A stretch of DNA of 64,000 bases, taken from contig NZ_JAIEPN010000091.1 of the NCBI RefSeq assembly GCF_019748365.1, positions 23,025 through 87,024 on the forward strand, written 5' to 3'. Source of the DNA: Novosphingobium sp. Its GTDB lineage: Bacteria > Pseudomonadota > Alphaproteobacteria > Sphingomonadales > Sphingomonadaceae. The notes under the pieces are model-generated. The model did not search any database. It was not told where the DNA came from and was given only the letters and a program-made list of their open reading frames with translations. Positions 26,748 to 53,760 of this stretch are shown one piece after another. The number at the start of each line of letters is the position of its first letter. The first letter of the stretch is position 1. A program made the position numbers and the translations under genes.

Positions 26748-27941
26748 ATGCATCTTGATTTCAGCCCCGAGGACCTCGCCTTCCAGCAGGAAGTCCGTGC
26801 CTTCATCGCCGAGAATTATCCGGCGGAGCTGCGCGGCAAGCAGGACGAGGGCGACGAGCTTTCGAAGGAAGACTTCCTTTCCTGGCACAAGGTGCTGGCG
26901 AAGAAGGGCTGGATCGCGCCGGCGTGGCCGGTGGAATACGGCGGCACCGGCTGGACCGCGACGCAGAAGTACATCTGGTCGGAAGAGACGGCGCGCGCGG
27001 ACTGCATCCGCCTGATGCCTTTCGGCCTCTCGATGGTCGGACCGGTGATCTACACCTTCGGCACGCCCGAACAGAAGGCGAAGTTCCTGCCCGGCATACT
27101 TTCGGGCGATGTGTGGTGGTGCCAGGGCTATTCCGAGCCGGGTTCGGGCTCCGACCTCGCCTCGCTGCGCACCAAGGCGGTGCGGGACGGCGATCACTAT
27201 GTGGTCAACGGCCAGAAGACCTGGACGACGATGGCGCAGCACGCTGACTGGGGCTTCTTCCTCGTCCGCACCGATCCCGATGCCAAGCAGCAGGAAGGCA
27301 TCTCGTTCCTGCTGATCGACATGAAGAGCCCCGGCATCACCGTGCGCCCGATCATCACGCTGGGCGGCGAGCACGAAGTCAATGAAGTGTGGCTGGAAGA
27401 CGTGCGCGTGCCGGTCGAGAACCGCATCTACGAGGAAAACAAGGGCTGGACCTGCGCCAAGTTCCTGCTCGCGCACGAGCGCACCGGGATCGCCGGTGTG
27501 GCGGCGTCGAAGCGCGGGATCGAGAAGGTCAAGTCCATTGCCCGTGCCGAGCTCGACGGCGACAAGCCGCTGATCGCCAACGCGTTCTTCAAGCGCAAGA
27601 TCGCCGAGCTGGAAATGGACCTCACCGCGCTCGAGTTCACCGAGCTGCGCAGCCTGGCGGGCGAAAGCGCGGGGCGCGGTCCGGGGCCGGAATCGAGCCT
27701 GCTCAAGATCAAGGGCTCGGAAATCCAGCAGCGCCTGACCGAGCTGACCCTGGAAGCGGTGGGCCACTATGGCGCACCTTATTTCCGCGGCTTTGGAGAG
27801 GGCGACAACGAACACCCGATCGGGCCGGACTACGCGCACCGCGCCGCGCCGACCTATTTCAACACCCGCAAGACGACGATCTACGGCGGTTCGAACGAGA
27901 TCCAGCGCAATATCATCGCCAAGATGGTGCTGGGGCTCTGA
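26748..27941 (+). CDS. Acyl-CoA dehydrogenase (subunit 1 of a pair)
   Basis: This FAD enzyme introduces the alpha-beta double bond into an acyl-CoA. ATG 26748 follows GGGAGAG by about 6 bases. The 397 residues follow the family order: helical N-terminus, YSEPGSGSDLASLRTKAV and WTTMAQHADW of the middle beta domain, then the helical end with YGGSNEIQRNIIAKMVLGL. The position of the usual C-terminal catalytic glutamate is Gly (YGG), but AHERTGIAG carries a Glu of the isovaleryl-CoA dehydrogenase type. Sequence and pairing resemble the PimC/PimD and steroid FadE type heteromeric enzymes. A second dehydrogenase follows 62 bases on. Confidence 0.93.
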   Translation: MHLDFSPEDLAFQQEVRAFIAENYPAELRGKQDEGDELSKEDFLSWHKVLAKKGWIAPAWPVEYGGTGWTATQKYIWSEETARADCIRLMPFGLSMVGPVIYTFGTPEQKAKFLPGILSGDVWWCQGYSEPGSGSDLASLRTKAVRDGDHYVVNGQKTWTTMAQHADWGFFLVRTDPDAKQQEGISFLLIDMKSPGITVRPIITLGGEHEVNEVWLEDVRVPVENRIYEENKGWTCAKFLLAHERTGIAGVAASKRGIEKVKSIARAELDGDKPLIANAFFKRKIAELEMDLTALEFTELRSLAGESAGRGPGPESSLLKIKGSEIQQRLTELTLEAVGHYGAPYFRGFGEGDNEHPIGPDYAHRAAPTYFNTRKTTIYGGSNEIQRNIIAKMVLGL

Positions 27942-52416: not shown

Positions 52417-52551
52417 TCAGGCCGAGAGCTTCTTGCGGCCGCGGGCGCGGCGGGCGCGGAGCACCTTGCGGCCACCGACAGTGGCCATGCGGGCGCGGAA
52501 GCCGTGGCGGCGGGCACGCACGAGGTTGCTGGGCTGGAAAGTGCGCTTCAT
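52417..52551 (-). CDS. rpmH: Ribosomal protein L34
   Basis: This is a 44-residue gene not in the ORF track. The translation [20 protein letters not shown] ... ending [11 protein letters not shown] is the full bacterial L34 sequence. It lies 26 bases ahead of rnpA in the classical order and about 65 bases downstream of a good promoter. Confidence 0.97.
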
Positions 52552-52622
52552 CGGTTTGCTCTTTTCGTTCGAATCGGTTTGACCGCAGCCTGCGCGAAAC
52601 GCGGCCCGGAATCAGGAGCGCG

Positions 52623-52651: not shown

Positions 52652-52705
52652 GCACTGCGGCGGCTTTCCGGACTTCTCCGCTCTCCCGCCGCATTGATAA
52701 CGCTG

Positions 52706-52770
52706 ACAGAAAAAAGGCCCGGTCGTTGCCAACCGGGCCTGAAAGTTTTGGGAGAGGATGCCTGAAAGGC
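52706..52770 (-). ncRNA. Candidate small RNA upstream of rpmH
   Basis: About 65 bases between a promoter-like pair (52777-52805) and a strong terminator (52710-52740). The predicted transcript has a small 5' hairpin around GCCTTTCAGGC, an unpaired pyrimidine stretch CATCCTCTCCC that could pair with ribosome binding sites, then the terminator. This layout matches alphaproteobacterial trans-acting sRNAs in which a C/U-rich loop targets Shine-Dalgarno sequences. The alternative is that the hairpin simply ends the transcript of the stress-protein gene 240 bases upstream. Confidence 0.5.
52710..52740 (-). terminator. Rho-independent terminator (candidate sRNA / usp transcript)
   Basis: A perfect 9-base stem AGGCCCGGT/ACCGGGCCT with an 8-base loop is followed on the minus strand by TTTTT. 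It works in the minus direction only. Confidence 0.85.
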
Positions 52771-52776
52771 AGCTTT

Positions 52777-52805
52777 CATATGCAACTATCCCACTTTCTT
52801 CGCAA
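52777..52805 (-). promoter_or_regulatory. Candidate promoter of the small RNA
   Basis: On the minus strand TTGCGA and CATATG are separated by exactly 17 bases and point to a start near 52770. The -10 match is moderate. Confidence 0.4.
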
Positions 52806-52980
52806 GTGCGAAATGGACCATAATGGTTGCACTTTTTGCAATCCCCTCACAACAATCGCCCGGAGGCCGCCGATTTCCATCGTCATTACAGCACTATGAC
52901 TCCTTGGCATCGCGCCGATGCCAAAATCGGATAGCGCTCTCGCTGCGTCGCAACATGCCCCAAGGGGAAGGTAACGGGCC

Positions 52981-53760
52981 TCAATGCGCCAGCAGCAGCG
53001 GCACCATCGACGTATCGAGCAGCGCGCGCGAGACCCCGCCGAGCAGCAATTCGCGCAGCCGGCTCTTGCCGAACAGTCCCATCACGATGAGCCCCGCACC
53101 AAGTTCATGCGCCTTGTCGGCAATCATCGTGCCGATCGCCCCGTGCTTCGCCACTTCATGCACTTCGGCATGGATATCGTGACGCGAGAGGTAGCAGGCC
53201 GCATCGCGCGCGGGGAAGCTGTCTTCCTTCTCGCGCACCATGAGGATGTGGACCGCGCTGGACAAGGCGAGCAGCGGCAGCGCCGCGCGCATCGCGGCGG
53301 CGGCTTCGTGTCCGCCGTCCCACGCCAGAAGCACCGGCTTGTCGAACACCACCAGCGGCACCCCGCGCGGCAAGGCGAGCACCGGGCAGCGCGAGCCCAG
53401 CGCCACTTCCTCCAGCGCCGGATCATCGAGGCTGGCGACAATGCAATCGGTGAAACGTGCCGCCGCCGCCACGCCTTCGACGCGGCCCTGATCGGTCAGC
53501 ACGACATCGAAGGGCACGTCCTCGTTGGCGAGCCGCTTGTCGAGATCGGTGGCGAGCTGTTCGTCGGCCGCGCGCACTTCATTGATCACCTCGGCCGACA
53601 TCGCCGCGCCGCCGAAGGGTTCCCACAGCGCCATCTGGGCAAACGGCGTGGCGATCTGGAACGAGACATGGCCGCGCATGGCCCGCGCCAGCGCGAGCGC
53701 GGTTTCAACCCGGTCGTCGAGCGTATCGGCATTGTCCGCTGGGCAGAGAATCGAACGCAT
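52981..53760 (-). CDS. Tandem universal stress protein
   Basis: ATG 53760 gives 259 residues with two Usp folds. The N-terminal half (SILCPADNADTLDDRVETALALARAMRGHVSF) is degenerate. The C-terminal half begins VLLAWDGGHEAAAAMRAALPLL and ends with the nucleotide-binding pattern GLFGKSRLRELLLGGVSRALL (G-x2-G-x9-G-x-S). Two-domain Usp proteins of this kind are usually ATP-binding stress proteins in the cytoplasm. The track extension to 53862 has no support. The 151-base gap to the divergent HAD gene shows nothing distinctive. Confidence 0.9.
   Translation of the reverse strand: MRSILCPADNADTLDDRVETALALARAMRGHVSFQIATPFAQMALWEPFGGAAMSAEVINEVRAADEQLATDLDKRLANEDVPFDVVLTDQGRVEGVAAAARFTDCIVASLDDPALEEVALGSRCPVLALPRGVPLVVFDKPVLLAWDGGHEAAAAMRAALPLLALSSAVHILMVREKEDSFPARDAACYLSRHDIHAEVHEVAKHGAIGTMIADKAHELGAGLIVMGLFGKSRLRELLLGGVSRALLDTSMVPLLLAH

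Follow-up and report, generated by a model that had tools for sequence, protein, structure and literature searches.

Does the gap between usp and rpmH in this Novosphingobium sp. contain a small RNA gene, and if so, to which family does the RNA belong and what could control it? The initial annotation had proposed such a gene and had left its novelty to an Rfam search. We scanned the whole window (the entire stretch of 64,000 nucleotides that was analyzed) with Rfam 15 and observed a sole match, RF00519 (suhB / MmgR), at 52701-52777 on the minus strand. This match scored 54.9 bits (cut-off, 41), covered model positions 1-77 of 77 and had an E of 1.5e-8 for the whole window, which supports the proposed gene and answers the question of novelty. 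Judged from its sequence, the usp-rpmH gap holds a real sRNA gene, belonging to the already known SuhB/MmgR (alpha-r8) family and not to a new kind. The genes and RNA parts are as follows.

52981..53760, minus strand: usp (universal stress protein, PF00582), the upstream gene and a conserved neighbour in Novosphingobium
52771..52710, minus strand: SuhB/MmgR (alpha-r8) sRNA, a predicted 62-nt transcript (from the Rfam match, the fold and the length of S. granuli SuhB)
52771..52759, minus strand: 5' hairpin UGCCUUUCAGGCA, 5 pairs with a UUC loop (from the fold)
52745..52760, minus strand: unpaired anti-Shine-Dalgarno core CAUCCUCUCCCAAAAC (from fold and conservation)
52710..52740, minus strand: intrinsic terminator, with an 11-pair GC-rich stem (52740..52715), a GCAA loop and a T-run (52715..52710)
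52421..52552, minus strand: rpmH, the downstream gene, a neighbour in a subset of relatives only

Structure and distribution of the small RNA

The 5' hairpin, the unpaired stretch and the terminator with a T-run that had been described on the minus strand were all present at the named site. The unpaired CAUCCUCUCCC begins at 52760 on the minus strand, CAUCCUCUCCCAAAACUUUC comes between the hairpin and the terminator stem, and CAUCCUCUCCCAAA is an unpaired, invariant part of the sRNA. RF00519 is described as having a short helix at the 5' end and then a conserved C/U-rich stretch without structure (PMC1273637), and the window sRNA has both. The predicted 62-nt RNA folded at -28.1 kcal/mol (z = -4.6), and none of 200 shuffles was as good. 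Conservation of the loop and both stems in sphingomonads, named as a check in the initial annotation, was also observed: the core was invariant, the 5' helix was nearly so, and in a 14-sequence alignment 7 of the 11 terminator-stem pairs were altered on both sides by compensatory changes (0/500 shuffles as high). Since the 5' helix hardly varies, covariation is uninformative for it.

We then considered whether a terminator and a hairpin could have come together incidentally, with no regulatory RNA. Terminator-like matches in 2.5 kb were at chance level (2 found, 2.1 expected), promoter-like matches in the stretch were likewise at chance level, and the sRNA promoter gave no textbook sigma-70 match at the 9-of-12 threshold. 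The case for the sRNA thus rests on homology and conservation, and the Rfam E of 1.5e-8, the family-wide conservation and the covariation make an incidental hairpin hardly credible.

Three copies above the RF00519 cut-off were found in the genome (54.9, 47.7 and 46.2 bits), all with GCCUUUCAGGCAUCCUCUCCCAAA. The sRNA was detected in at least 59/60 genomes of the genus and at least 133/151 of the family, counts that are lower bounds because the filters were strict. In some genomes (L005, L017, L022, L051 and many others), suhB copies lie within about 0.2-1 kb of one another; these clusters, and the presence of up to eight copies per genome, indicate that genomes of the genus differ strongly in copy number.

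Three known systems share the family or the name. Sphingopyxis granuli TFA SuhB, involved in carbon catabolite repression of tetralin genes, resembles the window sRNA in name, bacterial order and length (about 61-62 nt), but it comes from another genus, and its target thnR is specific to tetralin degraders. MmgR (alpha-r8) of Sinorhizobium meliloti shares the Rfam family, the CU-rich anti-Shine-Dalgarno core and a PhaR (AniA) site at its promoter; it differs in being 77 nt long, the sole alpha-r8 RNA of S. meliloti, and in its 10-mer, UUUCCUCCCU instead of AUCCUCUCCC. The UUUCCUCCCU form is also the one described for alpha-R8 in Caulobacter, whereas AUCCUCUCCC is common to all three copies of this genome and to most sphingomonad relatives examined. 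SisA-D (alpha-R8) of Caulobacter crescentus are likewise several siblings with one shared core through which mRNAs are repressed; their promoters are unrelated to each other, whereas the three copies here have box 2 (see below) in common. AbcR1/AbcR2 (alpha-r15) also carry CU-rich anti-Shine-Dalgarno motifs, and a partial likeness to SuhB has been noted (PMC7143759), but they have 114-120 nt, three stem-loops and two motifs, as against 62 nt, two stem-loops and one motif for the window sRNA.

A conserved promoter distinct from usp

The minus-strand promoter suggested in the initial annotation, TTGCGA-N17-CATATG, was found with both hexamers and a spacer of exactly 17. It lies among the following elements.

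52825..52841, minus strand: box 1 TTGCAAAAAGTGCAACC, with two TGCAA repeats
52799..52813, minus strand: box 2 dyad TTTCGCACTTGCGAA, spanning the -35 (consensus TTTCGCANTTGC)
52800..52805, minus strand: -35 element TTGCGA, 17 bp from the -10
52777..52782, minus strand: -10 element CATATG, conserved as CATANN

Across 90 distinct loci, information content was near zero upstream of -72 and rose in three islands downstream: box 1 TTGCAAAAANTGCAAC, box 2 TTTCGCACTTGC(ACAA or GAA) with the -35 inside, and CATANN at -10. Because a locus had to contain the RNA core to be included, conservation of this core in the set is by construction, which does not apply to the upstream boxes. Box 2 was present in 80/90 loci and in 0/90 of the control stretch, and in 75 of these 80 it ended 31 bp ahead of the hairpin; box 1, searched with a loose pattern, was present in 69/90 (control, 4/90). 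Promoter, RNA and terminator are found together in relatives as one unit of constant spacing. In its 16-base form, box 2 had 0-3 matches per genome in the genus, most of the places among those listed being about 36 bp before an sRNA match, and the 12-base form had 8 exact matches in this genome, three of which are the sRNAs. An exact box 2, TTTCGCACTTGCGG, was also observed at locus L075 (position about 1500, minus; contig C138:11233-11244), upstream of a gene of 223 aa (MTDTPENAAPEAATKPKARK...) that diverges from enolase; from its sequence, this gene is a possible further member of a box 2 regulon.

These data bear on the alternative raised in the initial annotation, that the RNA is merely the 3' UTR of the usp mRNA, or a 3' end processed from it, with the usp terminator as its end point. 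The usp gene is directly upstream on the same strand, about 210 nt away in the window, and the sRNA lies 3' of usp in 26/26 named close relatives, which had been retrieved by a search with the adjoining usp protein; rpmH follows the sRNA in only about 60% of the 26. However, the usp stop and the sRNA are 206 to 2129 nt apart in the different relatives, at times with another gene in between (L006 and some other lineages), while the distance from box 2 to the RNA is fixed, and L002 and L003, the two paralogues in this genome, have the same promoter block with no adjoining usp. Since the promoter block stays fixed while the usp distance varies, the sRNA is not simply a usp 3' UTR; neither the lack of an own promoter nor a fixed link to the parent end, the marks of a 3' UTR-derived sRNA, was observed. 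SuhB was also detected by dRNA-seq in S. granuli (PMC6563040). Taken together, these observations make an origin from the usp mRNA very unlikely.

In one Novosphingobium lineage, the gene between usp and the sRNA is methyltransferase-like (L006 1657..2523, minus), and it was also found in the L006 relatives L005, L013, L016, L020, L030, L059, L114, L120 and L127.

PhaR-like sites and possible control of the RNA

In S. meliloti, PhaR (AniA) recognizes YGCRNYGCR within AT-rich DNA; the mmgR promoter is bound by it, with the site listed at TSS position 13 (PMC12542648). Box 2 (YGC-N4-GCR) resembles this consensus with one extra base between the half-sites. We tried the PhaR motif as an account of boxes 1 and 2 and rejected it: the consensus was present in the proximal 110 bp of only 21/90 loci, and box 2 was one base too long. 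This same test revealed more distant sites, and the window has one.

52952..52944, minus strand: candidate distal PhaR/AniA operator TGCGACGCA; it precedes the hairpin by 182 bp and follows the usp stop by 29 nt

The sequence TGCGACGCA agrees with canonical YGCRNYGCR and is a predicted site in the promoter region of the window sRNA, its role being unproven because it lies 182 bp upstream. Among the 90 suhB loci, YGCRNYGCR was observed at -178..-187 in 38, as against 1.4 in shuffles, and in 14 it stood at -19, where it overlaps the -10 (0.1 in shuffles). The -19 site corresponds to the position-13 site reported for mmgR. The PhaR site of MmgR, like that of some sphingomonads, is in the core promoter; the window copy, by contrast, lacks the proximal -10 site and has only a half-site, TTGCA, at -19.

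Two features temper the distal counts. In the closest relatives the flanks are conserved too, so the distal site there adds no independent support, and the signal is partly confounded in the L006-type lineage because the site falls in the 3' end of the methyltransferase-like gene. We repeated the count on 64 filtered loci, after removal of the methyltransferase-confounded loci, the window's near relatives and two near-duplicates. The distal site was present in 15/64 against 0.94 in dinucleotide shuffles and the proximal site in 13/64 against 0.12, figures that overstate significance because shuffles ignore relatedness; 26/64 loci had neither site. In the methyltransferase-like gene, the LRRS codons form a PhaR-like site at -183, the same position as in lineages without the gene. 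Distances of the distal PhaR-like sites clustered near -169, -181 and -192; the numbers are small, and the clustering is suggestive of helical phasing.

The genome has one PhaR gene, and the gene was present in 58/59 genomes tested. The Phasin_2 model detected a single phasin gene, and two canonical PhaR sites precede it. We tentatively propose that sphingomonad SuhB is a direct output of PhaR through two alternative fixed sites, one over the -10 and one about 182 bp upstream, with a second regulator acting on boxes 1 and 2; we give this somewhat less than an even chance. The distal position is an unusual place for repression and the proximal site is absent from the window copy, both of which speak against PhaR control here. 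A different arrangement, which concerns the control of the RNA and not its identity, would have boxes 1 and 2 serve a regulator other than PhaR as the main control, the PhaR-like sites being secondary or fortuitous. Boxes 1 and 2 are indeed the best conserved promoter parts, the 16-base box 2 is rare in the genus, and the box 2 spacing exceeds by one base a PhaR consensus that the genome uses unchanged at its phasin gene. Yet canonical PhaR sites recur beyond chance at two fixed positions and rhizobial mmgR has been proven to be under PhaR; we regard main control by another regulator as plausible though on balance doubtful. Whichever regulators act, the conserved promoter elements, including the PhaR sites, may be the new part of this finding.

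Proposed mode of action and targets

The genome contains an Hfq gene (contig C208:29895-30320), whose single open frame of 236 aa apparently encodes a tandem pair of Hfq domains (106 and 81 bits). Hfq proteins of this double type are on record for Novosphingobium. S. granuli SuhB, of 61 nt, represses thnR with Hfq (PMC6563040). Masking of the Shine-Dalgarno sequence by the core is the mode of both this SuhB and Caulobacter SisA (PMC6563040, PMC12559287). By analogy with S. granuli SuhB, the window sRNA likely exerts Hfq-dependent repression at the 5' UTR, and we consider it very probable that it is a trans-acting, Hfq-assisted member of the SuhB/MmgR (alpha-r8) family. Its own promoter would start transcription at about 52771 and the intrinsic terminator would stop it; the unpaired CAUCCUCUCCC core would then pair with ribosome-binding sites of the GGGAGAGG type in target mRNAs, whose translation it would block.

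The core complement, GUUUUGGGAGAGGAUG, corresponds to a Shine-Dalgarno site with an adjoining AUG, and the expected targets are therefore those with GGGAGAG before the start codon. The strongest core complements among the 58 open frames of the window were at 26748+, acyl-CoA dehydrogenase-like (ribosome-binding site AAAAGGGAGAGCTTCATG, -13.7 kcal/mol with the core), and at 30246-, nitronate monooxygenase-like (GGGAGAGAGAGTCAGCCATG, -15.2 kcal/mol), both named by inspection; as 58 frames were compared, they are leads only. The ribosome-binding sites of phasin and PhaR were rejected as direct targets, since their predicted pairing with the core (-7.0 kcal/mol for phasin, -5.9 for PhaR) was weaker than the background mean of -8.4; this suggests targets other than those proposed for rhizobia, or ones reached less directly. 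MmgR limits PHB granules and is itself repressed by AniA (PMC7143759).

In Caulobacter, SisA-D repress mRNAs through the alpha-R8 core, SisA acting on many, and CrfA sponges SisA-D (PMC12559287). Scanning for core complements with up to 3 mismatches gave 94 matches, of which three are the sRNA genes themselves; the reversed control gave 47. The seven best other matches of this simple complementarity scan included no clear start-codon target or CrfA-like sponge. One guessed Rfam accession, tried as a sponge candidate, belonged to an unrelated family.

In S. granuli, SuhB increases when the growth rate is high, and PHB acts positively on suhB transcription (PMC6563040). Titration of PhaR by PHB granules could explain this effect. 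In carbon-rich cells that store PHB, the repressor PhaR would be drawn away from the promoter by the granules, so that more sRNA would be made; the raised sRNA would in turn silence secondary carbon-use genes. This chain from granules through PhaR and the RNA to silencing is a candidate explanation that falls a little short of probable.

The sRNA itself is an ordinary further member of a widespread alphaproteobacterial family, and its promoter is of moderate interest. Sphingomonads are important pollutant degraders, in one of which SuhB is the known catabolite-repression sRNA. The conserved PhaR sites and boxes give a directly testable promoter model for the effect of PHB on suhB transcription. 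If SuhB is indeed an output of PhaR, this would account for the onset of catabolite repression in response to PHB stores.
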